Assembly (NCBI RefSeq): GCF_000328665.1
Contig: NC_019972.1
Location: 124,001 to 188,000 of the forward strand
Length of the DNA: 64,000 bases
Direction of reading: 5' to 3'
From: Methanomethylovorans hollandica DSM 15978
GTDB taxonomy: Archaea; Halobacteriota; Methanosarcinia; Methanosarcinales; Methanosarcinaceae
Both the position numbers and the translations under genes were made by a program. This document shows positions 1-16,458 of this stretch, in pieces (the stretch's first letter is position 1; each line of letters begins with the position of its first letter). Under the pieces are notes generated by a model. The model searched no databases and was not told the DNA's origin. It saw nothing but the letters and a program-made list of their open reading frames with translations.

Positions 1-2
1 TG

Positions 3-62
3 GACTTCAGTCTGAACAGGATAGATTCATATCTGGGGAGTGAGAAGGCTGTTGCGGAGTAA
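3..62 (+). CDS. 3' end of an unidentified gene (partial)
   Basis: The frame starting at base 3 is open to a TAA at 60-62 and encodes the last 19 residues of a protein, ending in NRIDSYLGSEKAVAE. The other two plus-strand frames have stops within these 60 bases. The rest of the gene lies outside the window, so no function can be assigned. It could also be a chance open stretch. Confidence 0.4.
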   Translation, partial: DFSLNRIDSYLGSEKAVAE

Positions 63-138
63 AAATATCATTAACAACTGATTTAGGTTACTTTATTTTA
101 TTCTTGAAAAACAAGTATTCATACAAAACATCAATATG

Positions 139-146
139 TTTATATG
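139..146 (+). promoter_or_regulatory. Archaeal TATA box for the toxin-antitoxin pair
   Basis: TTTATATG lies 25-32 bases before the ATG at 171, the normal distance from an archaeal TATA box to the transcription start. This suggests a leaderless mRNA that begins at or very near the ATG at 171, which is why that start is preferred over the ATG at 144, which sits next to the TATA box. Confidence 0.5.
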
Positions 147-170
147 CATAAGACTCGAAACTACTATAGT

Positions 171-368
171 ATGAAAAGTGCTCATATTTTCAAAAATCCT
201 CGCAGATCAGGAAGTAAAAAGGATGCGCCAAAAACAATATATCCTTCAGAGGATTCTTTGGATCCGGCATTTGTTAAAGAGGTCGAGCACAGAAGACAAG
301 AAGTCCAGAATGGAAAAGGTATTAGATTTGATACCGCAGAAGACCTTTTTACAAACCTTGAAAAATGA
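171..368 (+). CDS. Antitoxin of a type II toxin-antitoxin pair (RelB-like position)
   Basis: A small, charged protein of 65 residues from the ATG at 171 (74 if the ATG at 144 were used). It is encoded directly before a RelE-type toxin, with an ATGA overlap of 4 bases, the usual layout of antitoxin and toxin. The C-terminal part (IRFDTAEDLFTNLEK) looks like the toxin-binding tail of short archaeal antitoxins. I do not recognise a specific DNA-binding fold. The role is inferred from position: it would bind and neutralise the toxin at 365 and probably repress the shared promoter. Confidence 0.65.
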   Translation: MKSAHIFKNPRRSGSKKDAPKTIYPSEDSLDPAFVKEVEHRRQEVQNGKGIRFDTAEDLFTNLEK

Positions 369-628
369 CTTATCAGATCATCTTATCTCCTGATTTTGAG
401 AAAGATACAAAAGTCTTATTTAAAAAGGATCCTGCTCTATATGATCGTTTTAAGAAAACGGTTTATAATATATTGGAAAATCCGTTTTGTGGAAAGCCAC
501 TACGCAATGTGCTAAAAGGGCTTCGCAGAGTTCATGTTGGGCACTTTGTACTCATATACGAACTCGATGAAACCCATAGGACTATCACACTTTTGAGCTT
601 CACACATCACGATAAAGCATATAAATAA
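365..628 (+). CDS. RelE/ParE-family toxin (probable mRNA interferase)
   Basis: This 87-residue protein has the size and pattern of RelE/YafQ-type toxins: an N-terminal helix pair (residues 10-40), then GKPLRNVLKGLRRVHVGHFV around residues 42-61, then a strand with IYELDE and an ending of SFTHHDKAYK. The basic residues in LKGLRR and the C-terminal HHDKAYK correspond to the RNA-contacting and catalytic part of the fold. RelE proteins cut mRNA on the ribosome; ParE relatives poison gyrase, and the sequence alone does not settle which applies. It overlaps the antitoxin gene by 4 bases (ATGA), so the two are translated together. Confidence 0.8.
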   Translation: MTYQIILSPDFEKDTKVLFKKDPALYDRFKKTVYNILENPFCGKPLRNVLKGLRRVHVGHFVLIYELDETHRTITLLSFTHHDKAYK

Positions 629-694
629 CAAAAAACGCTATGCTTAAGTATGTTTTCACAAATTCGTATCTTCTCTATTTTTGATGGTGTAAAA

Positions 695-1825
695 TCACAT
701 TATATTGTAAAACTTTGTATTATAGATCTCAGCTATTTCCTTTTCTGCTTCAGGTACCAGCAGTTTGGTCACCATGGAGATAGAGCAAGAATCCAGGTCC
801 ATGAAAATCTTTGCGTTTTCCACTGCGGTAGATTTTGCAGAAAAAGAGCTCATGATATCCGATAGGTTCTCTCTTGTTATTGTTTCGGTCTGATCAGAAT
901 AAGTCTTTGTTTCCAAAAGGACAACGCACGGTTTCTGCACAATGTGCACTGCGATTATTTCTGGTCTCAACCACCGGGAATGCCTTTGTCGCAGTTCATG
1001 TACGATATTGGATGACATGGGATAATCTTTCACAAAAGCAACAATCTTATTGACCTCATCCATGATGTTGTGGATAATTTGCATGCGCAGATTCACACTG
1101 CCCTCATATTCCAGAGCTTTTTCTATGGAAACTGCCCTGAAAACTGCATTATCCATCTCCTCAGATGCACTTTCGACGTGGGTGAAGAACAGTCTCCACA
1201 ATGCAAGCAAAGAAAGTTCCGAGTTGTACGGGACGATCTCCATTACAGAAAGAGCGAATTTCAGGTATGCCTCCAGATCTTTAAGCGTTTTTGTAACTTC
1301 AACGATATCCGAGGAAATACCCAGGTTCATTTTGTTGCTCATCCTGTAATTCATCTCTTTGCCATACTCCTGCTCCATGCGAAGAAGGAGATTCTCAGTA
1401 TCTGCTCCGTAGAATGCATTGAATACCTGTATTGCAGCTTTCCTGTAAGCTTCTGCCCACTCCTTAGCAGGAGTATCAAAATACCCCGGATAATGAGGAT
1501 TAGGCACAAAGAACCATCCGGCGTGGACATGCATCTTTTTGAAATCATCAATGGTAAAGTCGCATTGCAGATCATTCTTCTGCAGATATTCAGCGAAGAA
1601 TTCGAGCTTTTGCTCATGACTGCTCAGGTAAGTTTCATAGTTGTTGTCATATTGGATGTACTTTTCATCAGGCGAGTAGTCTTGCTGCAGGTAAGTGGTT
1701 ATCGAGAACTCGATGGAATTGTCGAATGCTATACAGGCCATTGCCCTGTCAAAAGCAGTATCTTTTTTGAAATGCCATTCAGCCTGTGCTAATATTTCCA
1801 GAGAATCATATGGATATCTGTTCAT
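695..1825 (-). CDS. Uncharacterised protein, 376 aa (weak HEPN-like resemblance)
   Basis: I do not recognise this family. The start is placed at the ATG at 1825 because GGAGGGTTAAAA precedes it with ideal spacing; an in-frame ATG at 1870 has no such site. The protein is mostly helical, with no signal peptide or membrane segment. Residues around HVHAGWFFVP followed by AYRKAAIQVFNAFYGAD recall the helix with a conserved basic-histidine motif in HEPN-like proteins, but the motif is not canonical, so this is speculation. The C-terminal third has alternating strands (EIIAVHIVQKPCVVLLETKT), perhaps a separate domain. It lies next to the defence-like block on the same strand, separated from it by about 220 bases. 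Confidence 0.55.
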   Translation of the reverse strand: MNRYPYDSLEILAQAEWHFKKDTAFDRAMACIAFDNSIEFSITTYLQQDYSPDEKYIQYDNNYETYLSSHEQKLEFFAEYLQKNDLQCDFTIDDFKKMHVHAGWFFVPNPHYPGYFDTPAKEWAEAYRKAAIQVFNAFYGADTENLLLRMEQEYGKEMNYRMSNKMNLGISSDIVEVTKTLKDLEAYLKFALSVMEIVPYNSELSLLALWRLFFTHVESASEEMDNAVFRAVSIEKALEYEGSVNLRMQIIHNIMDEVNKIVAFVKDYPMSSNIVHELRQRHSRWLRPEIIAVHIVQKPCVVLLETKTYSDQTETITRENLSDIMSSFSAKSTAVENAKIFMDLDSCSISMVTKLLVPEAEKEIAEIYNTKFYNIM

Positions 1826-2046
1826 TTTTAACCCTCCAGCCCTGAAAGAAAGACAATGTATGTTTTTCATCGTTTTTTTGGTAATGATTTATATTTATGA
1901 GTTAATAGATAGTATATTATAGTGAATAGTAAGTATATAATTTTATCTATTTGTGTTTACAATTTAAGAGTATATCTAAAACGAATGTATATGAAGACTA
2001 CTCTAACATCAATAAAATTATACTGCAATAGGTTTAGTAATAAATC

Positions 2047-5000
2047 TTAATTATTTGTTTTTTCAACAAAAGCAGCTATTTTTTGCATATGTATGGGTTT
2101 ATAATATAGATATTGCTTTTTGCCTCCAACAACAACATCGATTATATAATAATCTCCCTTTCTTTCTTTAACTTCTTCAGGTGCAACTTCATAATTCAGT
2201 ATTTTTTTTGCAATTTTTAAAATATTGTCCAGATTTCTGTTTGGATGATTTTTCATTAAAGCATGGCAATTTGGACATAAACATATAACATTAAACTCCA
2301 TATTAGTCCATTCATGAGCATTTTCGGTCTCAACGATTCTATAAATGGAAAAATACGGTTGATTGCTACCTATATTTAATTTTGTGTTACATAACTGGCA
2401 ATGTCCTCTATATTGTTCAAATAAAAACTGTTTTGGATCGATGCTATCATATATTTCAGTTTTAATTAAGTGACTATTTTTTCTTTTGATTTTAATTCCA
2501 TCAAGCCGTTTATGGAATTTATCACTATATTTTTGACGGATTTTCTCTTCCTCTTCTGGAGAAACACTATTATCCCACCCGGAGTTATTTGTATTTTTGA
2601 AATAAGTTTTTCCATGTTTACTAAGAGATTTTTCGAACTTCTTCCGAATATCGGATGGTGATGATTTCTTTGGTAAATTTTCTTGTTTCTCCAATGTGCT
2701 TTCATTTTGAGTTCCAGACAGATGAGAAAATGAGGATTTCTTTGATAATTGTTTATGTTCTTCTAGTGTGCTCTCAGTTTCGTTTCCAAGTAGACTATAT
2801 ATTGATGATTTCTTTTGGGACTGCTTTGTTTTTTTCAAAGATGCGATTAGTTCTGGAAGTTTCATTCTATCTTCTTCGTCAAGTGACTGGATTTCATTAA
2901 TAATTCCCTCAAGTTCTGGACATTTTTCTTTTAAGTATTCAGCTACTTCTAACATAAATTGAGCCTTTAGTTTAAGTTTTTCTGCGAGAGTCTTAGCTTT
3001 TGGGCTTTTTATATTGAATTCATCTGGCAAATCTGATAACATTAAGTCTGATGGAAGATGGAAGTTATTTTCTTTGTCGGGAATCCATTGGTGTTCAGTT
3101 AGTAACTTACCTGCTTTTGAATACTCTTCTGATTTTGTAGAGTTCGAATAGTCTTGGCGACTTGAAGATTCAACTGTTCCAGAAATTATTTTGGAATTAT
3201 TCTCTAAAATACTCCATAAGATATGTGCTTTCTGGACAGTGATATTTTTTAAAGCATGTTCTAATCCTTCAATCTCACTATCTGGATCAAATCCATTTAA
3301 ACTTCGTTTATGCCAGCCATGCATACTAGAAATTGTAACATTTCCCCATTCGCTACATTTACAGGTAATATTTATTTGAGATTTACACCCCAACTTTTTA
3401 AATATAATTCTGTCTAAATTCAAATTGGAATATAAACTATCTAGAAGGTAAATATTAGAATTTTCTTCAAAAAAAGTCTCTATATCCCTGTGACCTGTAT
3501 ATTTTTCACCAAGATAGATTTCTAAAGGCTTCTTTAATAAAATTTCTCCTGTACAGATATTTTTTGCATATAATATTGGCGTTGTTCTTAATATCTCCAA
3601 CAACTCTCTTTTTCGGTCTGAATTTATTGATGATAGTATCGTTTTTGAAATCCACTCTATATGTTGTAAATGTACTTCTTTGTCAATTGGCAAGTTTTTA
3701 TCTTCTTTATAGAAAGGCAATATTATATCAATTATTTCTGCTATATCATCAGGTTTTTGTAATTCCAATTCTTCGAGAAATTCTTTTGCTTTTGGGTCGT
3801 TGGCAATGTTATCCTTTATAGTTGGAAAACGTTCTCTGAATTCGGATGGGAAATAAGCATTAGGTTTTCCTTCCTCACTAAAGGGAATAACATGGGAATT
3901 GTTGTCTAACCTTATGATTTCCTTTGATAGAAGAGGGCCTTTTTGATAATATTTCTTCCACAATGCTTTTTGATCTAAAAGAAAAATATAGAACTTTTTT
4001 ACCCATTCATCTGACTGCTTCTCAATAAAGTCAACAGAAAAATCCCTCGCAAACTTGTCTGGGTCGATTTCAGGAACAGAAAGTTCAGTAATTAAATAAG
4101 ATCGAAGTTCAGGAGTTTTATCTTTTGTAATAGTTCCATCAAGCCATTGAAGATTTTCACGATGCAACAAATCACTTATCTGTTTTGAAGATAATAATTC
4201 CCTTAATGATTGTGAGTTGGCTAATATTGCTTGTTTTGCAGTTACATATCCACCATTATATGTCGGAAGGAGAGCATTATCACCGAGGAATTTTTCTTTT
4301 ATTTTCTTGGATATAGGCAAAAAAGTAGAATTATACCTAAGTGCGTTGATATCTATTGAAAGAGTTTGTAAAAAAGAGACGTCAAGTAATTCCATTTCTT
4401 TAATTCTATCGAGACTCTCTGCAGTAAGAATAGCAATTTCTTCAATTAATAATTTATTCCAGTCATTACTAAATATATTATCACGGGAAGTGGTTGTTTG
4501 AAAATTACCTTGAATGAGGAAACTAAGGCCAGTTTTTTTATCTGTAGGGAAAAAAACCACTAACTGAGTGTTATCTGCAGAAATAATCTGTTCTTTTTTT
4601 GAGTTCTCGTCATTTTGAACTAAATATGCAATTTCTACACTCGATTTATTATTACACTCATTTGAAATTGTTCGGCTAAATTTAAGCCAGTTTTCAATAG
4701 ATATTACACTTACATTAGACTCTGAGTAAAGTATGGCTCTTGAGTATGTTGTTTCGTGGTTCGATTTTTTATAATATTTTCCATATGTTCCATCAATCTT
4801 CCACGTAATCTCCTCTATGTTTTTTAGGAATAAAAGTGTCCTTGCTCCAAGACCAATTAATTTAGATTTAATTTCCAAATAGGAATCTTTTTGGTTAATT
4901 TTATCGTTGTTCAGAGGTATTACAAAGAGAGTTTGGCCTTTAATTATGTCATTTCTCTGATTTATTGAATACGGATGCACGTAGTTTTTAATGCAGAAAC

Positions 5001-5388
5001 AATAATGTCCACTGTATATCTCAGGTGATTTGGTATATGCATAAACAGATTTAAAACCAATTCCAAACTTCCCAATTTGAGATATATCTTGTTTTTTAGT
5101 TCCACTGGCCAATCTGCAGATGCCTTTTATGTCTTCTTCATCAAAGGGTATTCCATTATGTCTTATCTCTAATCGATCATTATATAACTCGAAATGAACT
5201 GATTTTATACGTGTGTCTTCCTTATTTAATCTCTCATAAGCATCCTCAGCATTCTGTAAAAGTTCATATATAAAGTGAGTTTTTTCACTATAAAGTTCTG
5301 TCAGTAATGTAGGTCCATACTCATTTACAGCCGTACCATAAAGTCCAATATTTTCTTCTCTGATAACATCATAAATAACATTAGTCAT
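2047..5388 (-). CDS. Sacsin-type HATPase protein with C-terminal HNH-like zinc motif
   Basis: A protein of 1113 residues from the ATG at 5388; the upstream TTG at 5400 would overlap the SNF2 gene. The N-terminus carries a GHKL/Hsp90-type ATP-binding fold as in sacsin: an N-box YELLQNAEDA near residue 45, HNGIPF near 95 and IGKFGIGFKSVYAYT near 125. The middle is long and helical with no recognised domain. The C-terminus has CQLC near residue 995 and CPNCHALMKNHPNRN near 1035, a CxxC...CxxCH arrangement as in HNH endonucleases. It starts 5 bases after the SNF2 helicase stop, so the two are almost surely one operon. Proteins joining a sacsin-like ATPase to a nuclease occur in prokaryotic defence loci; an anti-phage or anti-plasmid role is inferred. 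Confidence 0.8.
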   Translation of the reverse strand: MTNVIYDVIREENIGLYGTAVNEYGPTLLTELYSEKTHFIYELLQNAEDAYERLNKEDTRIKSVHFELYNDRLEIRHNGIPFDEEDIKGICRLASGTKKQDISQIGKFGIGFKSVYAYTKSPEIYSGHYCFCIKNYVHPYSINQRNDIIKGQTLFVIPLNNDKINQKDSYLEIKSKLIGLGARTLLFLKNIEEITWKIDGTYGKYYKKSNHETTYSRAILYSESNVSVISIENWLKFSRTISNECNNKSSVEIAYLVQNDENSKKEQIISADNTQLVVFFPTDKKTGLSFLIQGNFQTTTSRDNIFSNDWNKLLIEEIAILTAESLDRIKEMELLDVSFLQTLSIDINALRYNSTFLPISKKIKEKFLGDNALLPTYNGGYVTAKQAILANSQSLRELLSSKQISDLLHRENLQWLDGTITKDKTPELRSYLITELSVPEIDPDKFARDFSVDFIEKQSDEWVKKFYIFLLDQKALWKKYYQKGPLLSKEIIRLDNNSHVIPFSEEGKPNAYFPSEFRERFPTIKDNIANDPKAKEFLEELELQKPDDIAEIIDIILPFYKEDKNLPIDKEVHLQHIEWISKTILSSINSDRKRELLEILRTTPILYAKNICTGEILLKKPLEIYLGEKYTGHRDIETFFEENSNIYLLDSLYSNLNLDRIIFKKLGCKSQINITCKCSEWGNVTISSMHGWHKRSLNGFDPDSEIEGLEHALKNITVQKAHILWSILENNSKIISGTVESSSRQDYSNSTKSEEYSKAGKLLTEHQWIPDKENNFHLPSDLMLSDLPDEFNIKSPKAKTLAEKLKLKAQFMLEVAEYLKEKCPELEGIINEIQSLDEEDRMKLPELIASLKKTKQSQKKSSIYSLLGNETESTLEEHKQLSKKSSFSHLSGTQNESTLEKQENLPKKSSPSDIRKKFEKSLSKHGKTYFKNTNNSGWDNSVSPEEEEKIRQKYSDKFHKRLDGIKIKRKNSHLIKTEIYDSIDPKQFLFEQYRGHCQLCNTKLNIGSNQPYFSIYRIVETENAHEWTNMEFNVICLCPNCHALMKNHPNRNLDNILKIAKKILNYEVAPEEVKERKGDYYIIDVVVGGKKQYLYYKPIHMQKIAAFVEKTNN

Positions 5389-5393
5389 AATTA

Positions 5394-8300
5394 TTACCAA
5401 ACCTTAATATGAACAATTGCTTCCAAATTATAATCTAGTGACAATTCTTGACGATGTTGTAGTTCATTGATTTTAGTTTTATGTTTTGCCTTTTTGCTAT
5501 CAATTCGACCTTTCATTAAACGTACAAATCTTTCATCAGGTGTTTTCCCCTCAGATCTTTGCTTTTCAATATACCGATTGAGACTTTCTTGTAGTTTTTC
5601 GACTTGTAGCTTACAGGACTGTGTTAAAGCAGTTATTCTACTATCAATTTTAAAACGATTTTCTTCTGAGGCAACACGCCTCTTTTCTTCCACAATTTCA
5701 TTAAGATAATCCATTGCAATCTCTAAGAGCTCATTAACATCAATATAATCAGATTCAATTGTTGTAGTACCATCAATAGAATCACATGCCAGCAAGCGAG
5801 GGATTTTTCCAAATAAAGTTCTATAAACTGTTTTTGTATTGATGTCGACAGGTAAGCCTAAAAATTCAATTTCTGTTCTCAAGCCTTCCATGCGCACTTC
5901 AAAAAGAAATACAATATATTCTCCATTTAAAATATATGATTCCGATGGATGAAGGTAAAATCTAAATATTTTATGCAATAGTTTTTCTTTTTCTAGCTGA
6001 TATGTCAAAAAGCGTGACCAATGTCCTGTAGGTGAGAGGAAAATATAATCCTGATAGGTTTCTGCGAGCTGCCCGTCAAAAATAACTTTTACTGGACTAG
6101 ACCCAAATAATGCTTTAAGCTCATTAAATGCACCTTCATTTCCAGGTTTCCTTGAAAAGGCTTCTAGTTGAGTGACAAGGCTTGGAGATAATTCTATAAT
6201 ACCACCGCTGTCATCAAGACTACTGAAAGTGCAACCTTCATGCATAGACAAATAGTTTTGTGTTAATTCTATGGCATCTGAAGGACTGATAAAATTTCCT
6301 TCAGAGATTCTATTTATTGGTTTAGTAAAGTAATCATCACTTAAAAGCTCTGTCCTGTATTTCTCAAATTGTTCGTATTCTGCTTTTGCTGCTTCGATAG
6401 CTTCCTGCAAACGTCGAGATATTTCATTTTTTTGTTCATCAGAAAGGCCTCCTGAAATTATTGCGGTTTGAATATCAGCAATCTCTGTGCCCATTATTGG
6501 TTCAAATGCGCCGATGCCTTCTTCTACTAAATTGATCCTGCGATATAGGCGGTCATAGATTTCCTCGTCAACTGAATTTTTAATAAACATATTTCCAACA
6601 ATTATCTTATCGGCAGTCTGTCCAAATCTATCAATTCTTCCAATTCTCTGTTCTATCCTCATTGGATTATATGGAAGATCATAATTGATTATTGCATGAC
6701 AGTATTGGAAATCAAGACCTTCTCCCCCAACTTCACTGGAAAGAAGAATATCAAAATCTCCATTTTTGAAAGAATCCATTGTCTTATACCTGTCTACAAC
6801 ATCCTGACCATTAGAATTTGAGGGAATGCTACCATGGATAATTCCAACACTATATCCATCCCTTTCAAGACTCTTTTTTAGGTACTCTAATGTCCTTACA
6901 AAAAAAGAAAATACTATTACTTGATGAGTTTCAGGATTTGAAATTACTTTATCAAGCATATGTTTAAACTGAGAATATTTGCTATCAATATTGCATCTTT
7001 TTTCCAGATCATCTAATAACACCTGAAAACTCTCTTTTAAAGTCGTGGGCAGTGCAGTATTACTGATTTCCAAATCATCTTCATAGTCATCGAGCTCAGA
7101 GGGATTTGGTAGATCGAATACTTTGTTTTCTTTTATGGAGGATTCAAGATAGTCCTTCATAGCTGGTATACAACTACTTATCATACGACGATAAGTGTTT
7201 GTAATAAATCCGAGTATTTGAGGATCTTTACCTATAGACAAATAATAATTTTGGATTACTTTTAATGCATGATCTTGAAACTTCAGTTCTTCCTTCGAAA
7301 GAGTTACCGGTAATTCTAAAACTTCTCTCTGAACTTGGTGTTCCAAAGCTTCTCTTTTTCTGGTTCGTGTGAATGAGTAGCTGAGCGGATTTAATGACAA
7401 TAACAAACGGTCATATCTAACGAATTCATCTGGAGACAGATTCTTATCCTGATTTAGTCTGTTGATTAGTTCTTTAATCTCTTCATGTTGCAATATGATT
7501 TTGCCTAAGGGATCCATTTCCAGTTCCATTATATGAGTAAATATCTCTTTTCTCTTTTCAACCAAGTTTTGAGACAATGAATGCCTTATGCGATTTATTT
7601 TAACAACTGGATTGTATAGGGCTTCAAATGTTGTTCTATCAGGAAAAGCAATGTTATTTAGAATATGCATCTGATTATACAAATCACCACTACTGAGATT
7701 CATAGGTGTAGCAGAAAGCATGAGCATCATTTCAGTCATATTTCCCAATAAGCTACCTAATTCATTACTGTCGGTATCAGTATTTCGCAGATGATGTGCT
7801 TCGTCGATTACCACCATACCAAATGTTGCTTCTTCTCTTTTTGAATCTAATTCAATTAAAAGATCAAGATATTCTCTTCTTCTGAATAACTGTAAACCAA
7901 CTACAAAAAAAGCATATTTTTTAGGAAAAATACCATCTTGTATAGTACTATTCAAAACATAATTGAGTTTTTTACCATCAAGTACTTCAAAATCAAGACG
8001 AAAACGTTCCTTCATCTCTCTTACCCATTTTCTTATGAGTGCATTGGGACATACTATTAAGATAGGAGTACTGTGTGTCAATTTTTCTCTTGCAAGCATT
8101 TCAGTTAAAATTATCCCCGTTTCAATAGTCTTTCCAACACCAACTTCATCAGCGATAAAAAGTCTCTCATCAGAATTTGGAGATATAAATTTCAATAAAG
8201 GCTTAAATTGATGTGGATTGAAAATAGTTTTACTACCAAGATAACTATAGAGGTTGCTTTCAAGAGGTTTCGAGAGTCGGAACCATGTTTGAAATATTTT

Positions 8301-8531
8301 ATATTGAGAACAACCTCCAAGATTTTCCGTATAGAAATTTTCCACTAGATTATCTTCTTGAACTGAATATGGTTCTAGATATTTCTCTGCAAAAGTGCGC
8401 GTTTTTCCTTCAACGGTTACTTGATAAGAATAACTTCGTGAGCCTTTAATTACTTTATTAATTGTCCCAATTTTGCCTGTACTAATAACTTTTACATTAT
8501 TACCTGCAATAAAAAGTGGCTCATTGGACAT
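5394..8531 (-). CDS. SNF2-family DNA-dependent ATPase (RapA/DrmD-like helicase)
   Basis: A two-lobed SNF2 ATPase. Walker A is GVGKT (about residues 131-135) in ADEVGVGKTIETGIIL, Walker B is DEAH (about 243-246), and motif III is SATP. The second lobe has IHGSI, GGEGLDFQ, and the arginine-finger motif RIEQRIGRIDRFGQ. The N-terminal 50 residues form a small beta domain, and the C-terminal 350 are charged and helical. The ATG at 8531 is chosen because GAGGTG precedes it by 5 bases. Such enzymes move along or remodel double-stranded DNA; close relatives are RapA and the SNF2 subunits of defence systems such as DISARM. Its gene overlaps the small ORF upstream and nearly touches the HATPase-HNH gene downstream, so the three are co-transcribed. 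Confidence 0.9.
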   Translation of the reverse strand: MSNEPLFIAGNNVKVISTGKIGTINKVIKGSRSYSYQVTVEGKTRTFAEKYLEPYSVQEDNLVENFYTENLGGCSQYKIFQTWFRLSKPLESNLYSYLGSKTIFNPHQFKPLLKFISPNSDERLFIADEVGVGKTIETGIILTEMLAREKLTHSTPILIVCPNALIRKWVREMKERFRLDFEVLDGKKLNYVLNSTIQDGIFPKKYAFFVVGLQLFRRREYLDLLIELDSKREEATFGMVVIDEAHHLRNTDTDSNELGSLLGNMTEMMLMLSATPMNLSSGDLYNQMHILNNIAFPDRTTFEALYNPVVKINRIRHSLSQNLVEKRKEIFTHIMELEMDPLGKIILQHEEIKELINRLNQDKNLSPDEFVRYDRLLLSLNPLSYSFTRTRKREALEHQVQREVLELPVTLSKEELKFQDHALKVIQNYYLSIGKDPQILGFITNTYRRMISSCIPAMKDYLESSIKENKVFDLPNPSELDDYEDDLEISNTALPTTLKESFQVLLDDLEKRCNIDSKYSQFKHMLDKVISNPETHQVIVFSFFVRTLEYLKKSLERDGYSVGIIHGSIPSNSNGQDVVDRYKTMDSFKNGDFDILLSSEVGGEGLDFQYCHAIINYDLPYNPMRIEQRIGRIDRFGQTADKIIVGNMFIKNSVDEEIYDRLYRRINLVEEGIGAFEPIMGTEIADIQTAIISGGLSDEQKNEISRRLQEAIEAAKAEYEQFEKYRTELLSDDYFTKPINRISEGNFISPSDAIELTQNYLSMHEGCTFSSLDDSGGIIELSPSLVTQLEAFSRKPGNEGAFNELKALFGSSPVKVIFDGQLAETYQDYIFLSPTGHWSRFLTYQLEKEKLLHKIFRFYLHPSESYILNGEYIVFLFEVRMEGLRTEIEFLGLPVDINTKTVYRTLFGKIPRLLACDSIDGTTTIESDYIDVNELLEIAMDYLNEIVEEKRRVASEENRFKIDSRITALTQSCKLQVEKLQESLNRYIEKQRSEGKTPDERFVRLMKGRIDSKKAKHKTKINELQHRQELSLDYNLEAIVHIKVW

Positions 8532-8763
8532 CAAAACACCTCATAAAATTATCAGTGTCCTGATATTTCCAGAACTTATCCACAGTTAGGAGATTGAATA
8601 GATTATTTCTCAATACTATTCTTAGTGCCAAATCCAACGTTCTCGCAGAAATTAGATTTGATTCTTTTAATTCAAATGAAAATTTCAACATAGCTGATCT
8701 AAAATGAAAATATAAGTCAACTTTATGAGAAATTAGTAATTCTAAGGCTTGCTTAATCCCCAT
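8521..8763 (-). CDS. Small protein of unknown function, 80 aa
   Basis: This small ORF ends 11 bases inside the start of the SNF2 gene, and its own start overlaps the tail of another reading frame upstream; such tight packing suggests a real operon member. The sequence is helical and hydrophobic-patterned (ALELLISHKVDLYFHF, LDLALRIVLRNNLFNLL), without cysteine motifs or membrane segments. I do not recognise a family. It may be a subunit or regulator of the SNF2/HATPase machinery. Confidence 0.55.
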   Translation of the reverse strand: MGIKQALELLISHKVDLYFHFRSAMLKFSFELKESNLISARTLDLALRIVLRNNLFNLLTVDKFWKYQDTDNFMRCFDVQ

Positions 8764-8909
8764 TTACGTGAAGCTGGCTCAAATTTATTGTAATCAATCA
8801 TTGAATTAGTATATTTATCCATCTCTTTTATTTGTTCACGAATTTTATGATTTTGATCTTCTATTTCTGATATTTTACTTTTTATGTCATTGACTCTCTC
8901 TAAGGTCAA
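8742..8909 (-). CDS. Short coiled-coil frame, 55 aa, or frameshifted tail of the coiled-coil gene
   Basis: A frame read from a TTG at 8909 encodes about 55 residues, beginning MTLERVNDIKSKISEIEDQ and continuing as a charged coiled coil before ending in RKWGLSKP. It overlaps the last residues of the coiled-coil gene upstream and the first codons of the 80-residue gene downstream. Because its heptad-like pattern carries straight on from the upstream protein, it may be that protein's real C-terminus, reached by a frameshift or lost by a one-base change. No clear ribosome binding site precedes the TTG. Confidence 0.35.
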   Translation of the reverse strand: MTLERVNDIKSKISEIEDQNHKIREQIKEMDKYTNSMIDYNKFEPASRKWGLSKP

Positions 8910-9507
8910 TCAGCCGTCTTAACTTTATTGTCCTCTCATTTGCTTCTTTTTTAATCTCTTTTGCTTCATTTTCTATAAACCACAATGGATCATTTTTTTC
9001 CAATCTTGAACATTCAACGTGTAAATCATGTAATTTCAATTTTAAATCTTCTAGATTATGTGAGTATAATTTGTGTATTTCTGACTCGGCAGAGTAGTAT
9101 GTTGTTGTTTCTGTTCTTTTCTGCTGCCTTCTAACCCATTCAGAAAACATTTGTTCAGACAATGTCCTTTCTTTTACAACTTTTTCTTTACGAGCATTTG
9201 CAGCTTTTAAGACTAACAATTTGCGTTCATATTCTTCATTAATCTCAGACTTCTTTTTTTCTACGGCTTGCATCTCTTCTTTTATCTCCCGCATCCTTTC
9301 TTCTTTTATTTTGTATTTAGAAGACTTTACATTTTTTTCTTTGCAAACATTGCTTATCTCTTCGTTCAACTTTTCAATCTCTTCTTCAGTCCTTTTGAGT
9401 TTAATTTTCAACTTCATAATTTTCATTTCATTATCCTTTATCAGTCCAAGTAATTCCTCCGTTGAAAGCCAGTGATGAATTTTTTCATTTTTAACCTGCT
9501 TACGCAT
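8887..9507 (-). CDS. Coiled-coil protein of unknown function
   Basis: About 206 residues from the ATG at 9507, preceded by AAAGGATG at good spacing (an ATG at 9516 overlaps that site). Nearly the whole protein is a long charged coiled coil rich in Glu and Lys (for example KLKIKLKRTEEEIEKLNEEI and MREIKEEMQAVEKKKSEI), with a short break near WVRRQQKRTETTTYY. No enzyme motif is visible. It is the first gene of the probable operon containing the small ORFs, SNF2 ATPase and HATPase-HNH protein, and may be a structural or sensing partner. The following frame (8742-8909) continues the coiled coil, so the gene may be frameshifted. Confidence 0.65.
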   Translation of the reverse strand: MRKQVKNEKIHHWLSTEELLGLIKDNEMKIMKLKIKLKRTEEEIEKLNEEISNVCKEKNVKSSKYKIKEERMREIKEEMQAVEKKKSEINEEYERKLLVLKAANARKEKVVKERTLSEQMFSEWVRRQQKRTETTTYYSAESEIHKLYSHNLEDLKLKLHDLHVECSRLEKNDPLWFIENEAKEIKKEANERTIKLRRLIDLRESQ

Positions 9508-9629
9508 ACCAATCATCCTTTACTATTCTTTTTTGAGAATGTTATGACAAGTTAAACTATTGAACTTGCTACTTATATAGTATCAATGTTTATTATCGGT
9601 GTTATGTCTTTAACCTTTAGAATGTTCTC

Positions 9630-12600
9630 TTACTTCCACTCGCATATCCCCTTATAATCACAGAAATAGCAGTTCGGCTGGACCTTCAGCTCAAAGTCCT
9701 CATCCAGTATCCCTTCAACAGCCCCTTTTACCTTTTCAAGGACCGCATCGACATTCTTAGCCTCGATATCTATAAGGGTCAGTTTAGCCACATTGGGATG
9801 CACATACAAGTGACCTGCTTTAACAGGCAGTTTTCCGTACTTTTCTTTCACTGCCAGACAATAAAGGGCGATCTGCACGTCTTCCTTAAGTTCGTTCTTT
9901 GTGTACGGTGTCTTATTCGTCTTGTAATCGATAACAATATAATCGCCGACAGGTGTCCTGTCCAGCCTGTCTATGAAACCCGTGAATGGCGATCCATTTA
10001 TGGAAAGGTCAAAACGTTCCTCTATTGCGACAGTTTCATTTGGATTTGTCTGCTCGAACTGGAACCAGAATTCTAACATCTGTTCCATTTTACTATGTTC
10101 TTGTTTTTCCTGGGTAGCCGATGGGAAGACCGAGCCATCCCAGGTATCATCAAGCATTTTCATAGCATCAGAGATTAGTGGTGTCTTACCTTGCATCTTC
10201 TGCCTTGCCATTTCCTCATAAATAGCATGCATCCCGGTACCCACCTTCAGATGTGTTTTGTGCGGAGTGGGTATATGTAAAATATTGTTGTACTTGAACT
10301 TCAGCGGACAATCAATATATTCTTTTATTTTTGATGCCGAGAATCTCATGGCAGGATCGACCAGAGCAGGTAACCTGTCATCAATAAGGTCCTGCAGTTC
10401 AGTGGGATCCTTCAAAGTGACCTGCATGAATCTATGCATATCAAAATTTGCAGGATCTCCACTTTGTTCCAGCTCCCTTAACTGCGCCAGTACAAGCAGG
10501 GATTCCAGGGCCTGCTTCAGCTGCCCTTGTCTGGCATACATGCTTACCATGGCCTCATACTCGTTCATCTTAAGCTGCAGAGGAGAATTTGCTGTAAGTC
10601 CGTATTGTCCCGTACTTGCAGTTGCATCGATCATTTCCACAAGCGTGTTCTGTGTATGATCGATATCTTCCAGGAACTGGCTTGGCTTTGAAGCATTAGA
10701 ATTTACCAGATACTTTTCAGGGAAGACCAGATACAACTTCTCTTTTGCCCGGGTCATGGCCACATAAGCAAGCCTTCTTTCTTCTTCAAGGTGCAGCACT
10801 TTCTCTTCTACACCCCGCTGTACTCCTTTTGCTAGCTTCAACGGTACAGTAAATGTTTTCTTCTGATGCTGTAATGGTAAATGCCGTGCAGCCATATCAC
10901 ATACGAAAACTGCTTTTGCTTCTTTACCTTTGGACTGATGGATGGTCATTATCTTTACAGTGTTCTCGTCTCCTGCTTCCCCATCCTCGATATCCATGTC
11001 AAAGACCAGTGCCATGTGTTCCATGACCTCTTCAAATTCTGAACCTCCACCGATCAGTTCAAGGTCTTCAACCATTCTTACAAGAGCGTTCAATACTTCG
11101 ATGTTCTTTCGGGATATTCTGGTATCTTCCTGTAATGCAGAACGATACAGGTCTGTCTTTTCTATGAGTAGATGCTTCAGGGTATCAGAAGGCACATGAT
11201 TCTTTTTATGCACTATCAGTTCCTGAATTCTGGTGATGATAGAAGATACAAGGTCCTTTTGGTCGATGTTGATATTATCGAGATGGTTCAGGAGAACTTC
11301 GTATATCCCGTCACCTATAGCATTATTATTCCGGGCAAGCTGCCTTGCCGTAATGTTGATCTTCTGCAGATTTTGCTCTTTTACTCCTTCCCTTGATAAC
11401 ACCTTTGCAAATGAAATCCCGTTATTGAAAGGGTCAGATACTATTCTCATATATGCAAGTGCTTCCTGGATGACAGGGAAATAGGTCAGCTGTAACCTTC
11501 CAACATCCTCTACTGGTATCATCTGCAGCCTCAGGGCTTCACTGAACTTTCTGCCATCATCTCTTTTGCGTGTAAGGATGTAAATGTCCCGAGGCTCAAT
11601 GCCTTCTTTTTCCACAAGCCTTTTTACTTCTCCTGCAACCCACTCAGCTTCACTTTCGTCATCAGGAGCTTTGACTACCTTTATCAGTTCACCGACACCA
11701 TTACTGGAGACAAGGTTCTTTTGTTCTCTCTCCGGATTTATCTCGATGAGCTGCTGAGAAATATCCACGATCTGTTCAGTAGATCTATAATTCACATCCA
11801 GGGTAACCTTCTCGAGAGAAGGATAGAAAGTTTTTAGCTGGCTGATATTTGAGAGATATGCACCTCTGAACCTGTAGATGCACTGGTCATCGTCTGCCAC
11901 ACAGGTAAGATTTCCCCCGTTGGCCATGAGATGAATAAGATGCAGCTGTGCATAATTAGTATCCTGGAATTCATCTACCAGGATGTGGTCATAACGGCTT
12001 CCTATTTTGTTTTTTACAAAAAGGTTGTTCTCCAGCAGATTACAGGCAAGGTGTATCATATCATCATAGTCGATGAAATTATTCTTCCATTTGTATTGCT
12101 GATAATGATAGTAGAATTTTGCAAGATCTCCGAGTTTAAGCAGTTGGTCAGTTTCATCGTCTGTAAGAGTAGCACCGGATGTAAGAGAAGTGGAAACGTA
12201 TGTTTCAAGTTCTTCAGGAGGGATAAGATGATCATGGAACTGTGAAACACCTTCCAGAAGACTTGTGATAAGGTCTGTGGGTTTGGAAGGAAGGGTAATA
12301 TGGTCAAACCCAAATAGATCAATGTTCTTTGTACCCCATACATGGGAATGTTCCTTTGAAATGAGCCTTGTCCCTCGATTGATACCCAGATCCAGTGAGA
12401 ACTCTCGAATAAGATCATTGCAGAAAGAATGGAATGTTGAGACCGTAATACCAGTGCCAACTCCAATGTCGTTTTCTATTCGGTTCTGCATTTCTCCAGC
12501 TGCTTTTTCTGAAAACGTGAGAGCAAGTATCCTGTCCGGAGATATTCCATCATTGATCAGTTTCAGTACTTTCTGTGTTATTGTTAATGTTTTCCCGGAT

Positions 12601-12677
12601 CCGGGGCCTGCAAGAATAAGCAGGGGACCAGAAGTATAAGATACTGCTTTTGATTGACCGGTATTTAGTTGAGACAT
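9630..12677 (-). CDS. UvrD/Rep-type helicase fused to a RecB-type nuclease
   Basis: 1015 residues with superfamily 1A helicase motifs: Q motif and Walker A GPGSGKT at 24-30, DEFQDT near 232, then YRFRGA, MTIHQSKGKEAKAVF and RRLAYVAMTRAKEKLYLVFP. The C-terminal 230 residues hold a PD-(D/E)xK nuclease, seen as FTGFIDRLDR and VIDYKTNK (near 915), with four cysteines (about C789, C1003, C1006 and C1012) placed as in the iron-sulphur nucleases AddB and Cas4. It therefore resembles a fused AddAB/RecB enzyme that unwinds and degrades DNA ends for repair or defence. AGGAGAAATAATA precedes the ATG. It lies about 100 bases upstream of the coiled-coil operon on the same strand, and could serve that system or act as a housekeeping repair enzyme. 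Confidence 0.92.
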   Translation of the reverse strand: MSQLNTGQSKAVSYTSGPLLILAGPGSGKTLTITQKVLKLINDGISPDRILALTFSEKAAGEMQNRIENDIGVGTGITVSTFHSFCNDLIREFSLDLGINRGTRLISKEHSHVWGTKNIDLFGFDHITLPSKPTDLITSLLEGVSQFHDHLIPPEELETYVSTSLTSGATLTDDETDQLLKLGDLAKFYYHYQQYKWKNNFIDYDDMIHLACNLLENNLFVKNKIGSRYDHILVDEFQDTNYAQLHLIHLMANGGNLTCVADDDQCIYRFRGAYLSNISQLKTFYPSLEKVTLDVNYRSTEQIVDISQQLIEINPEREQKNLVSSNGVGELIKVVKAPDDESEAEWVAGEVKRLVEKEGIEPRDIYILTRKRDDGRKFSEALRLQMIPVEDVGRLQLTYFPVIQEALAYMRIVSDPFNNGISFAKVLSREGVKEQNLQKINITARQLARNNNAIGDGIYEVLLNHLDNINIDQKDLVSSIITRIQELIVHKKNHVPSDTLKHLLIEKTDLYRSALQEDTRISRKNIEVLNALVRMVEDLELIGGGSEFEEVMEHMALVFDMDIEDGEAGDENTVKIMTIHQSKGKEAKAVFVCDMAARHLPLQHQKKTFTVPLKLAKGVQRGVEEKVLHLEEERRLAYVAMTRAKEKLYLVFPEKYLVNSNASKPSQFLEDIDHTQNTLVEMIDATASTGQYGLTANSPLQLKMNEYEAMVSMYARQGQLKQALESLLVLAQLRELEQSGDPANFDMHRFMQVTLKDPTELQDLIDDRLPALVDPAMRFSASKIKEYIDCPLKFKYNNILHIPTPHKTHLKVGTGMHAIYEEMARQKMQGKTPLISDAMKMLDDTWDGSVFPSATQEKQEHSKMEQMLEFWFQFEQTNPNETVAIEERFDLSINGSPFTGFIDRLDRTPVGDYIVIDYKTNKTPYTKNELKEDVQIALYCLAVKEKYGKLPVKAGHLYVHPNVAKLTLIDIEAKNVDAVLEKVKGAVEGILDEDFELKVQPNCYFCDYKGICEWK

Positions 12678-12697
12678 TATTATTTCTCCTGTAAATA

Positions 12698-13678
12698 TTA
12701 TTCTAGAATTTTAATCTCACACTCATAGGTTTCCATCAGATCATCGTAGAGAATTGTATCCTCTATGTTAGCATCTATTTTTGCATCTGATTCTTTCCCA
12801 AGCTTTGACATTACGCATGATCTTGAACGCATTACTCTTGGCACACCGGGTTTGATTTCCAGAGAAGTGTTAAAAGCTTCAACAGCTTTCTCATGCTCTC
12901 CGGCGTTAAGATGTGCTATTCCTTTGTAGTACCAGCTCTTGGAATTTCCCCAGTTAAGAGAAATTGCTTTCTCAATTGATTCCATAGCTTCTTTGTGTCT
13001 TGAAAGATGAGATAGTACGAAGCCTCTCTTTGTCAGTGCTTTTACATTAGTTGGGTCTAAGTTCAGTGCTTGATCGAAATATTCCAAAGCCTCTTCACAA
13101 CGATGTTCTTTTGAAAGGATATATCCTTTGCAGAACAATGAATCAGAATGCATCGGATTAATGGATAAAGCTCTTTCAATTGAATAATTGGCTTCTTTTG
13201 GCTGATCATTTTTGAGATGGGCTGCTCCTTTCCATGACCATGCAACGTAATTTCCCTGATCCAGTAAAAGCACCTTATTGAGGAAATCTATTGATTCCTC
13301 GTATTTTTCTAAAAGGAAAAATGCATTTGCTGTATTCATTCTATATTGTGGGATATCTGGTCTCAGTACGGTAGCCTTGCTTGAATACTCTATAGACTTT
13401 TCAAGGTTGCCTGCCCTCAAATAAGCAGAGCTTAGTGCAAAAAGAGCCCTGTGGTTAAAGGGTATAATACATATTGATTTCTCTAAGCAGTTAATAGCCT
13501 CGTCGTACCTGTGAGAGTTAAAGTAGGCAATACCTTTTCCGTAAAGTGTAGTTGATGAATCTGATTCTGAACTTTTGGATTTGTCAAAGGCCTGAATAGC
13601 TTCTTCATATTGTTTGAGTTTCAGAAGTAAACATGCTTTTTCATGCCATTCCTCAGCACTTTTAGGCTGCATGTTCAC
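12698..13678 (-). CDS. TPR-repeat protein, probably the 3' part of a frameshifted gene
   Basis: 326 residues from an ATG at 13678 form about eight or nine tetratricopeptide repeats (for example YEEAIQAFDKSKS, YDEAINCLEKSI, CEEALEYFDQALNLDPTN). TPR proteins act as protein-protein scaffolds. The ATG has no good ribosome binding site, and the same frame stays open upstream to a TAA at 13874-13876, encoding convincing TPR-like sequence (RLAESFYKEGSLPNAIFDIK, ALSFEPENHRCKDL). That extension overlaps the end of the upstream cold-shock gene, which switches to nonsense there. The two were most likely one gene of about 840 codons, now in two frames. Confidence 0.75.
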   Translation of the reverse strand: MNMQPKSAEEWHEKACLLLKLKQYEEAIQAFDKSKSSESDSSTTLYGKGIAYFNSHRYDEAINCLEKSICIIPFNHRALFALSSAYLRAGNLEKSIEYSSKATVLRPDIPQYRMNTANAFFLLEKYEESIDFLNKVLLLDQGNYVAWSWKGAAHLKNDQPKEANYSIERALSINPMHSDSLFCKGYILSKEHRCEEALEYFDQALNLDPTNVKALTKRGFVLSHLSRHKEAMESIEKAISLNWGNSKSWYYKGIAHLNAGEHEKAVEAFNTSLEIKPGVPRVMRSRSCVMSKLGKESDAKIDANIEDTILYDDLMETYECEIKILE

Positions 13679-13782
13679 TATTTGCTTTTTACCTTTAATC
13701 TGCTTTGAGCTGTATTCTTCGTCCCACTTTTTGCAGAGATCTTTACATCTGTGGTTCTCTGGTTCAAATGATAAAGCCTCTT

Positions 13783-15213
13783 TTATATCAAAAATAGCAT
13801 TTGGTAAACTGCCTTCTTTATAGAAGGATTCGGCCAGTCTAATAATATATCCATTATCTCGTATGGCAATATCTTACAAGCTGTGTATTGCCCCTCAGAA
13901 CCTGTTGAAGGTTCAAAGAGAACTTTAATTTCATTTCCCCATTGGACGGTATTTGTCTGAGATCTAATTCCATCATCCAAGATATCCTTATAATAGAAAT
14001 ATCGCTCAGTTCCATTAGTATCTCTTATGAACCCAAATCCTCTGTCATGTTTATATGAATAAATACTACCACATTTCAGATCAAGTTCTTTGAATACAAC
14101 TTCCGTTTCATAAGGTTGAGTTTCATTATCATGTGTCTCAATTACATATTTAGAGTGAAGCAGTTCATTCAATGCATTGGTATCAGCATCATATTCTAGA
14201 TTTGGATGTAAAGGCAAACCTTCTAGTATTGATTCCAGCAGATCGATAACGGAGAAATTATCAAAGGATTGTATCCCAAGAAGATCTTTTAGTTTCAAGG
14301 CTTTTTTATGCATTTTATTTTCTATTAGTACAAGCATCAAGGAACCAATCATCAGATCGTACTTTTCTTTATTTGACTCGTTGAAATTGTTCTCTAGAAA
14401 ACCGAAAGTTGTTGCCACCACATTTTTAAATATGTAATAATTCTCGGAATTTATGGCCGACACACAGAATTGTTTCCAGGAGATTATGTCCTCCCATGGT
14501 GAAACGACATTGAAATAGAGCCCCAGATCGTAATATACTTCTTCGTTAGTATTAGATTTAAATGCTTCACAGGCTGCATTGTATATGAATTCAGACTTTG
14601 GTTCTTTTAGAAATGCTTTTTTAAATTCGCAGGAAGCTTTTTCATGCTCGTTGACTAGTGAATAGAACATTCCTGCCTTGTAATTGAAAGCACTATGTTG
14701 AGGATATTTTTGTGCCAGTTCCAATAGTTCAGAAGCTAGGTACGATAACTGTGATAAATTGTTCTTTTTAAGTGAGGAATGATACTGGTCGTTTATCCTG
14801 TTCCATTTTCTTTTATCATCCTGTACATTGTTAGTTATAATGCCTGAAGGAAATTCCATTTTTATGTCTTTAAATCTGAGTTCATTTTCTTTTAGATCAC
14901 CCAGGATCTTACTGATATCCTGCATTAAAGAAAATTGTTCGAATAAATATTCATCTTCATTTGATTTGTTCAAGCTGTCGTTTTTTTCTATAATTACATC
15001 TGAAGTGATATTCTGGACTTCGGCAGGGGAGAAACATTCAACTTCCCACATGCCTATGATACGATGAGCTACACCATATACATGTGTTTCATTCTTTATT
15101 ATGATGTAATCGTTACCGGTAATCTTGACCGATCCCTTTATTTTATCTCCGTTTTGCAAAAGAATAGTTATCTTCTCACTGTTTTTCAGGTAATTATCCA
15201 GTTCTTTGAACAT
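13783..15213 (-). CDS. Sm-like/TPR/cold-shock-domain protein, 5' part of a frameshifted gene
   Basis: About 476 residues from the ATG at 15213 (GGTGG 5 bases before). Residues 1-60 look like a small beta-barrel (KITILLQNGDKIKGSVKITG, similar to Sm/Lsm folds). The middle is helical and TPR-like (SAFNYKAGMFYSLVNEHEKA). Near residue 385 there is a cold-shock-type domain with GSIYSYKHDRGFGFI and FYYKDI, which in this family binds RNA or single-stranded DNA. After GQYTACKILPYE the frame runs into about 25 unconvincing residues and stops, while the minus-one frame carries TPR sequence joining the gene at 12698. A one-base deletion, sequencing error or programmed frameshift are all possible. The divergent neighbour is the CARF regulator. 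Confidence 0.75.
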   Translation of the reverse strand: MFKELDNYLKNSEKITILLQNGDKIKGSVKITGNDYIIIKNETHVYGVAHRIIGMWEVECFSPAEVQNITSDVIIEKNDSLNKSNEDEYLFEQFSLMQDISKILGDLKENELRFKDIKMEFPSGIITNNVQDDKRKWNRINDQYHSSLKKNNLSQLSYLASELLELAQKYPQHSAFNYKAGMFYSLVNEHEKASCEFKKAFLKEPKSEFIYNAACEAFKSNTNEEVYYDLGLYFNVVSPWEDIISWKQFCVSAINSENYYIFKNVVATTFGFLENNFNESNKEKYDLMIGSLMLVLIENKMHKKALKLKDLLGIQSFDNFSVIDLLESILEGLPLHPNLEYDADTNALNELLHSKYVIETHDNETQPYETEVVFKELDLKCGSIYSYKHDRGFGFIRDTNGTERYFYYKDILDDGIRSQTNTVQWGNEIKVLFEPSTGSEGQYTACKILPYEIMDILLDWPNPSIKKAVYQMLFLI

Positions 15214-15225
15214 CCTAACCACCAT

Positions 15226-15559
15226 TATATTAAGTAGTTACTAAATATAATAATTTTGCTATTTTTAATTGTTATTCTATTCTTTTTTCTGAACAGATGC
15301 ATGCCGGATCACGATCCACAGAGGTTTTATGTACATGATCCGGTAGCATCAAACTCATTTGTTTCAGAGTAGTTATATTTCGCACTACCATCCACTATTC
15401 ACAGTTAGATGATTAATATCAAACTGTGAATGTTTACTATGTACAGTATATGTATGATATATAACTTTTGATTTAATTCCTGAATTGTGGCTGTTATTTT
15501 TGGATTGGTTAGTCTGAACATCCATAGAAATATATAGTATCTATAATAATATTTGATCA
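15226..15559. promoter_or_regulatory. Divergent intergenic region with two inverted repeats
   Basis: This 334-base gap separates the minus-strand cold-shock/TPR gene from the plus-strand CARF regulator. It holds two long-spaced inverted repeats. CCGGATCA at 15304-15311 pairs with TGATCCGG at 15336-15343. ATTCACAGTT at 15397-15406 pairs perfectly with AACTGTGAAT at 15422-15431. A TATA-like TATATAGTAT at 15531-15540 lies about 26 bases before the regulator's ATG. The repeats could be operators for the CARF-HTH protein itself. No gene is seen here. Confidence 0.45.
15531..15540 (+). promoter_or_regulatory. TATA box of the CARF-HTH gene
   Basis: TATATAGTAT is centred about 25 bases before the ATG at 15560, the normal distance from an archaeal TATA box to the transcription start, so the mRNA is probably leaderless. 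No ribosome binding site precedes the ATG, which fits. Confidence 0.5.
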
Positions 15560-16159
15560 ATGACAGACCATACTCTTATCACTACATTATATACTCTTGA
15601 ACCAGTACTCATCTGTGTTACAAGGCTTTCTCCATCTAAAATAATTATCTTGACAGAAGAAGACACAGCTGAAAAAAAAGCTCAGGCGGAACAGATCCTG
15701 GAGGCTACTTTTGGTAAGGTCATAGAGATTAAAAAGGCAGTTACTTCTCTTTATGATCCTGTAAGAGTTGCTCAAGATGTAGCAGCTTTGATCGAAAAGG
15801 AACATGCTCAGGGAAGAAAAGTGCAGATAAATGTTTCCGGAGGCAGGAAGCCCCAGGCTTTTGGTGCTCTATTTGGTGCCTATGCACGTAGTGACATGGT
15901 AGCACGGATAGTGTATGTTACTGAGGAAGATAATTTCATCATCGATTTCCCTGTACTTAGTTTTAATATCTCTCCAACAAAGAAGATGATTTTAGAACTT
16001 GTCCAGAATGGCACAGTTGCAGTCGAGTCTATAGCAATGAGTGTAGGCATCTCTAAAGGAATGGCTTATAATCACCTAAGGGAACTGAAATCCATGGGAT
16101 ATATCACTGACGGGGATGGATATAAGATAACTGATTCCGGTAGACTTGCTGTGATATGA
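15560..16159 (+). CDS. CARF-domain winged-helix regulator (Csa3-like)
   Basis: 199 residues. Residues 1-125 form a Rossmann-like CARF domain: a first strand and helix (TLITTLYTLEPVL), then KIIILTEED, then the ligand-loop motif INVSGGRKPQAFGALFGAY near residue 92. Residues 135-199 are a winged helix (AVESIAMSVGISKGMAYNHLRELKSMGYI). This is the architecture of Csa3, which senses cyclic oligoadenylate or related nucleotides and controls CRISPR or defence genes. No CRISPR array or cas gene is in the window, so its targets are elsewhere or are the divergent neighbour and the minus-strand defence-like block. The inverted repeats just upstream are candidate binding sites. Confidence 0.82.
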   Translation: MTDHTLITTLYTLEPVLICVTRLSPSKIIILTEEDTAEKKAQAEQILEATFGKVIEIKKAVTSLYDPVRVAQDVAALIEKEHAQGRKVQINVSGGRKPQAFGALFGAYARSDMVARIVYVTEEDNFIIDFPVLSFNISPTKKMILELVQNGTVAVESIAMSVGISKGMAYNHLRELKSMGYITDGDGYKITDSGRLAVI

Positions 16160-16420
16160 GGGGCCTTTTAGTTTTTGTAGGCAAAGTTCTGGAACAAAGT
16201 AAGTGTTGAGTCAGAGAATTTTGAAAAACTTGTTTGACACGAAGCTGCTGAATGAAATATAACTGGTAAAGATGTGGATGGCAGAGGACCGGAAGCCTGC
16301 GGAAGTGTTGCTTGAAAATAATAGGGAAAAATAGCGATTGAAAGGCATAATTGGAAGTAATTATCATGATGGAGATTGAAATTAGAAATTGTTATAATAC
16401 GTAGTTCACTTAAATCTACA
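16160..16420. other. Intergenic region without recognised gene
   Basis: About 260 bases between the CARF regulator and the terminator of the convergent surface-protein gene. Short open frames exist on both strands, but none has a ribosome binding site or a recognisable protein pattern. I see nothing supported here. Confidence 0.4.
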
Positions 16421-16453
16421 TGAAAAAAAGACAGAGCGAATGTATATTCGCTC
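16421..16453 (-). terminator. Terminator hairpin of the surface hydrolase gene
   Basis: GAGCGAATGTATATTCGCTC (16434-16453) is a perfect 8-base-pair stem. On the minus strand it is followed by a run of seven T residues (16422-16428), directly after the stop codon at 16459. The same hairpin, with the same flank, follows the large surface gene at 23143. Confidence 0.75.
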
Positions 16454-16458
16454 ATATG

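Follow-up and report, generated by a model that had tools for sequence, protein, structure and literature searches.

Two adjacent minus-strand genes of the archaeon Methanomethylovorans hollandica DSM 15978, encoding an SNF2/RapA-type ATPase and a sacsin/Hsp90-like ATPase, represent a gene pair that is, with near certainty, conserved as neighbors across bacteria and archaea, and an immune role for this pair is likely. The genes lie in a 64,000-nucleotide stretch of NC_019972.1 (124,001–188,000), referred to here in its entirety as the window; all coordinates are window positions. A first-pass annotation of this DNA had proposed a candidate defense operon of four or five genes. The open reading frames (ORFs) of that proposal are real and occupy the minus-strand positions assigned to them, but the conserved unit consists of SNF2 and sacsin only. 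Profile searches of the locus covered the ten larger proteins of positions 1–16200 and ten further window ORFs. The features of the pair are as follows.

5394..8531, minus strand: SNF2/RapA-type ATPase, DrmD-like, without a fused effector; core gene 1, 1045 amino acids (aa); Pfam SNF2 and Helicase_C, PADLOC DrmD 2.6e-122.
2047..5388, minus strand: sacsin/Hsp90-like GHKL ATPase; core gene 2, 1113 aa; Pfam SACS 2.6e-18, PADLOC TmtA 2.1e-75.
5044..5277, minus strand: GHKL nucleotide-binding motifs of the sacsin-like protein (N-box ELLQNAED; HNGIPF, with Asp replaced by His; GKFGIGF).
2251..2400, minus strand: EcoKMcrA-type HNH remnant of the sacsin C-terminus (zinc cysteines retained as CQLC and CPNC; YR in place of the catalytic HH).
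8532..8568, minus strand: vestige of the PLD-SNF2 linker seen in the related genome G058; DNA similarity ends here, with two 1-base gaps.

The SNF2 ORF (5394–8534) starts at ATG 8531. The sacsin ORF spans 2047–5400 and has a likely start at ATG 5388, based on homology to G058 and to a Bacteroidales locus (L040), with TTG 5400 as the alternative. Sacsin is encoded downstream of SNF2, and exactly 5 bases separate the SNF2 stop codon from the sacsin ATG, in full agreement with the spacing reported in the first-pass annotation.

The association of the two genes has been probed from both sides. Among 150 relatives, a close homolog of the sacsin gene is found only in G058 (67%), where it directly follows an SNF2 gene 80% identical to that of the window. 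When 84,980 species genomes were scanned with a sacsin alignment, 80 loci emerged, and an SNF2 homolog lies no more than three genes from sacsin in 30 sacsin-selected loci (counting plasmid loci and G058) drawn from many bacterial phyla. A UvrD gene lies within the same distance in 28 other loci, and SNF2 and UvrD occur together in none of the sacsin-selected set. SNF2 accounts for 28 of the 277 genes within two positions of sacsin versus 2 of 644 farther out (Fisher P 2e-13), an adjacency well beyond chance. All 28 of these SNF2 neighbors are on the same strand as sacsin, and most overlap it or lie within 11 bases. Because these loci had been picked by sacsin, the test was redone starting from SNF2 across 393 genomes of the phylum. 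Ten SNF2 genes of the family were recovered in nine genomes, and a sacsin-type gene is directly downstream of all ten. A looser SNF2 search of the 150 relatives adds one genome (G040) with a DUF262-like gene upstream of an SNF2 gene that has no sacsin, indicating that the link between SNF2 and sacsin is strong, not absolute.

The two proteins also co-vary in sequence: their pairwise distances correlate (Mantel r = 0.58) to a degree reached in 0 of 5000 permutations. In the sacsin tree, the window protein falls in a supported set of 36 rows made up of 28 SNF2-linked members, none that are UvrD-linked, and eight without a visible partner, several of which sit at contig ends. No third gene recurs: at most 4 of 115 neighbors in the bacterial pair loci share a Pfam family. 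Furthermore, the archaeal pairs of G029 and G081 have no other defense gene adjoining them. Consequently, the minimal unit is two genes.

The SNF2 protein of the window carries intact motifs (Walker A ADEVGVGKT, DEAH, SAT, and QRIGRIDR as motif VI) and matches the Pfam families SNF2-rel_dom (5.7e-22) and Helicase_C (3e-23); its best solved relative is RapA. What varies among the SNF2 proteins of the pairs is the N-terminus. In 11 bacterial pair loci a Swt1-like HEPN domain comes first, with RNRW and the final His invariant (Rx4H), and the same HEPN_Swt1-SNF2 fusion is present in three archaeal pairs. G058 and L040 instead carry a PLD domain at this position, while many other SNF2 proteins of pairs, including that of the window, are bare. 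The window protein nests in the SNF2 tree between the PLD-bearing proteins of G058 (80%) and L040 (55%), and DNA similarity to G058 ends 37 bases upstream of the window SNF2 start, within the former PLD linker. The simplest reading of these two observations is that the PLD domain was lost in the window lineage.

The same observations, along with the two 1-base gaps, would be expected if the locus were a decaying remnant of a PLD-SNF2 and sacsin system that is non-functional or merely tolerated. We consider such decay unlikely, as both large ORFs are full length, the SNF2 motifs are intact, and bare SNF2-sacsin pairs are common. Those of L157 and L158 contain the next closest SNF2 relatives after G058 and L040, suggesting that a bare pair is probably functional.

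The sacsin-like protein matches solved sacsin domains in a profile search (3.9e-17), and a full-length structure model (predicted local distance difference test 78, predicted template modeling score 0.55) resembles the N-terminal and middle domains of Hsp90. Its GHKL N-box (ELLQNAED) and glycine-rich G2 motif (GKFGIGF) are intact. The HNH-like end described in the first-pass annotation is likewise real, as a profile built from the C-termini of the family matches EcoKMcrA (E 1.5e-8) and TagI (9e-8), and the zinc-binding Cys pairs CQLC and CPNC are conserved. An active nuclease is not supported: the PYLEVHH sequence of EcoKMcrA aligns with PYFSIYR in the window, such that both the metal and the general-base histidines are replaced, and the catalytic base His is missing in 25 of the 29 members of the SNF2-linked set that bear the zinc finger. 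Only four Chloroflexota pairs retain this His, and in these SNF2 is the downstream gene. In a search with a structure model of the C-terminal domain, HNH nucleases are the top matches at a level that is not significant (E 0.013). These alignments suggest that the C-terminus is probably a former McrA-type nuclease that now serves as a reader; binding of modified DNA by this domain is a guess.

The case for an immune role draws on the very patchy distribution of the SNF2 family (9 of 393 phylum genomes), the toxin-type nuclease fusions, the kinship to TmtA and DrmD, and the OLD, DUF262, CARF and toxin-antitoxin genes that the window also holds. Defense-like neighbors are present at some pair loci, namely McrBC; HsdR, HsdS and HerA; and Mre11/Rad50-like genes. 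The defense role proposed in the first-pass annotation is therefore in keeping with both local context and distribution. A number of observations weigh against it. The neighborhoods of pair loci are overall only mildly enriched in defense genes, two archaeal pairs lie among apparent housekeeping genes, and the close form of the pair occurs in G058 alone among the 150 relatives. The window copy no longer has its PLD domain and could be in partial decay. In place of the GHKL motif-II Asp (DxGxG), the window protein has a His (HNGIPF), as does the whole clade (invariant in 32 aligned sequences), so ATP binding by the sacsin-like protein is assumed. Lastly, the defense role itself is inferred from sequence and context.

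With regard to neighboring genes, an Mre11-like phosphoesterase and a Rad50-like ATPase are encoded directly upstream of the pair in two archaeal families (L155, 4375–8813; L158, 11690–16128). These genes, the similarity to RapA, the two pairs among apparent housekeeping genes and the weak overall defense enrichment would all suit a housekeeping or DNA-repair module, in which a RapA-like motor recycles stalled polymerase with the help of an Hsp90-like chaperone. Such a module is improbable given how few genomes of the phylum carry the SNF2 family, the fusions to toxin-type HEPN and PLD domains, and the similarity to TmtA and DrmD. A virus-borne system was also considered and rejected, as IMG/VR yields only two distant relatives. 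No clean empty site was found among 30 relatives, in which the 3' flank (1–2040) is unmatched and the 5' flank finds no more than scattered repetitive matches plus a single stretch at 73%.

Returning to the immune reading, we somewhat favor the view that the two genes and their two ATPases constitute a genome-surveillance system, with phages or plasmids as its most probable targets. It would operate as follows, a mechanism put forward with less assurance than the immune role. First, the SNF2 motor would track along invading DNA. Next, the Hsp90-like ATPase would function as a clamp gated by ATP, reading either the DNA or a stalled complex, partly through the McrA-derived zinc finger and perhaps by recognizing base modification. 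Finally, ATP-driven closure of the clamp would license an effector. In relatives, the effector would be the fused HEPN domain (RNA cleavage, abortive) or the fused PLD domain (DNA cleavage). As the fused PLD has been lost in the window, the effector here may act in trans, with the neighboring UvrD-PDDEXK protein as the obvious candidate, or the pair may remodel or block on its own; other bare pairs would likewise have to act by remodeling or blocking alone. Whether SNF2 and sacsin together amount to an undescribed, widespread two-gene immune module, with a constant sensor (a RapA/DrmD-like motor, an Hsp90-like clamp and a catalytically dead McrA-type reader) and an effector that is swapped between lineages (HEPN RNase, PLD DNase or a nuclease acting in trans), is in our judgment evenly balanced. 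If the pair is immune, an Hsp90/sacsin-type ATPase would be tied to DNA surveillance in which RNase and DNase effectors are exchangeable, raising the question of what this chaperone-like ATPase senses, DNA or proteins. From the domain swaps, a single sensor core is predicted to be capable of driving the cleavage of either RNA or DNA.

The sacsin-like protein could instead act alone, with SNF2 as a frequent neighbor, in which case the locus would simply be Tiamat, which is described as a single-gene system. The TmtA sacsin/Hsp90-like ATPase of Tiamat is homologous to the window sacsin over its N-terminal 70% (PADLOC profile PDLC03972, 2.1e-75, window residues 31–807), and an SNF2-linked archaeal relative (L153) scores 501 bits against the same profile. 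The match covers positions 32–824 of the 1302 in the TmtA profile and leaves window residues 808–1117 unmatched, so the full-length architecture of Tiamat is absent. The window differs from Tiamat in that its unit is a pair with SNF2 and in that its sacsin ends in an HNH-derived zinc finger. Because SNF2 is far more common beside sacsin than elsewhere and co-varies with it, we give single-gene action little credence; the conservation of the pair argues against it for the window clade.

Three further minus-strand features adjoin the pair.

8521..8763, minus strand: 80-aa ORF overlapping the SNF2 start; without homologs, probably outside the system.
8887..9516, minus strand: coiled-coil ORF of 209 aa; outside the conserved unit.
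9630..12677, minus strand: UvrD helicase with PD-(D/E)XK nuclease (Pfam); facultative neighbor and possible effector in trans.

Neither small ORF matches a family in the profile libraries beyond generic coiled-coil matches, both are absent from the pair locus of G058, and the coiled coil has no homolog at any pair locus. The sole weak match to the coiled coil among the 150 relatives (G083, E 2e-4) is of coiled-coil quality. For the 80-aa ORF, the best E-value is 0.007, the marginal matches contain stops or fall in long unrelated frames, and there is no profile match. Both were consequently rejected as components, and the expectation that these genes would stay together in relatives holds for SNF2 and sacsin (10 of 10 when starting from SNF2) and fails for the coiled coil and the 80-aa ORF. 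The coiled-coil frame (8887–9516) stops at a AGAGAGAG repeat, and one extra AG unit would add about 50 residues; assembly error, slippage and decay are alternative explanations for this end.

The UvrD-PDDEXK gene, which the first-pass annotation suggested might be part of the system, is present in 10 of 59 other relatives searched. The nine neighborhoods that were fetched (L124–L132) contain no SNF2 or sacsin gene nearby, and UvrD-PDDEXK was rejected as an obligatory partner. It nevertheless adjoins a sacsin gene in G073 (L016) and G353 (L158), weakly favoring a connection, and lies within 5 kb of one in G058 (L015); the L158 copy is close to that of the window and directly downstream of an SNF2-sacsin pair. 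The UvrD-linked bacterial sacsins form a branch separate from the window sacsin. Taken together, UvrD-PDDEXK is facultative and behaves as a mobile defense-island gene, not as a fixed member, although it may cooperate with the pair. It is very doubtful that the coiled coil, UvrD-PDDEXK, SNF2 and sacsin form one larger defense operon, since their tight, co-directional packing and the arrangements in L158, L016 and L015 are outweighed by the small ORFs without supported homologs at other loci, the nine relatives with UvrD alone, and the lack of UvrD beside SNF2-linked sacsins in the bacterial set.

A second sacsin clade (about 28 loci, L070–L118) lacks the zinc finger; it is linked to UvrD-PDDEXK, and its loci contain an N6/N4 DNA methylase (22 of 28) and a ResIII-type helicase (19 of 28). 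This clade is apparently a separate type III restriction-modification-like system; the window sacsin belongs to a different clade, and membership in such systems was rejected.

Other genes of the window include a 391-aa protein directly downstream of sacsin (695–1870, minus strand) with no match in any profile library, and a 480-aa protein (13783–15225, minus strand) with a weak Hfq-like N-terminus and a cold-shock C-terminus that is in a co-directional run with UvrD. A ParE/RelE-family toxin (144–628, plus strand) is preceded by a small ORF that is a possible antitoxin. The Csa3/CARF-type regulator (15560–16159, plus strand; CARF3 1.7e-92) has no cas genes among the neighbors scanned. Farther away are an OLD-family ATPase/nuclease (45104–47185, minus strand; PADLOC Old 1.5e-62), a reverse transcriptase that, judged by eye, is probably of the group II intron type (51865–53373, minus strand), and a DUF262-type protein (60000–61694, plus strand) that matches PADLOC Orf5 (2.9e-177) and HEC-06. 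Finally, a 1.4-kb stretch (16421–17890) inside the ORF 16459–19011 has many copies in its own genome and genus at 68–79% identity.

Comparison with PADLOC profiles gives separate matches to TmtA and DrmD, and no named PADLOC system describes the pair. The window SNF2 aligns over its full length to the DrmD profile of DISARM (PDLC02623, 2.6e-122), but falls below the cut-off of the NCBIfam DISARM_DrmD equivalog (NF038317, 300 bits versus 610). DrmB (NF038324) has no match in the whole genome, while control genomes are positive, and neither a DNA methyltransferase nor DrmA was found among the ten larger proteins and ten further ORFs. DISARM was rejected on the grounds of the DrmB result and the missed cut-off; the partner of SNF2 in the window is a sacsin-like ATPase. 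Azaca was rejected as well, since ZacC matches the SNF2 weakly (4e-20) and the sacsin matches no Zac profile. Assignment of the UvrD gene to Gabija (GajB) fails because there is no GajA among the proteins of 1–16200 and the UvrD carries its own PDDEXK; the OLD/GajA-like gene of the window is ~32 kb away.

The claim that the combination is undescribed is tempered by the kinship to TmtA and DrmD and by an earlier prediction. The pair was not found in the literature covered, which excluded preprints, and absence from it is not proof. Iyer, Abhiman and Aravind (2008) described GHKL ATPases with SWI2/SNF2 helicases and HNH or HKD nucleases and predicted a restriction-like role (PMC2292703). Those operons with superfamily 2 helicases involve MORC/paraMORC families, often with DNA methylases, and the available portion of that paper does not describe sacsin-type proteins or SNF2 proteins that swap HEPN and PLD domains. 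Swt1-like HEPN fused to SWI2/SNF2, as in the 11 bacterial pair loci, is listed in PMC3710099, whose available text reports no sacsin neighbor. The DUF499-centered BREX-related systems combine a RapA-like SNF2, which in one type is fused to an HKD (PLD) nuclease, with a large partner ATPase (PMC12839542). That partner is an AAA+ DUF499 ATPase, accompanied by an N6-methylase, and the words sacsin and Hsp90 are absent from the paper. Should the SNF2-sacsin pair prove to be immune, families that are filed separately, DrmD under DISARM and TmtA under Tiamat, would join as one unit that automated annotation currently splits.

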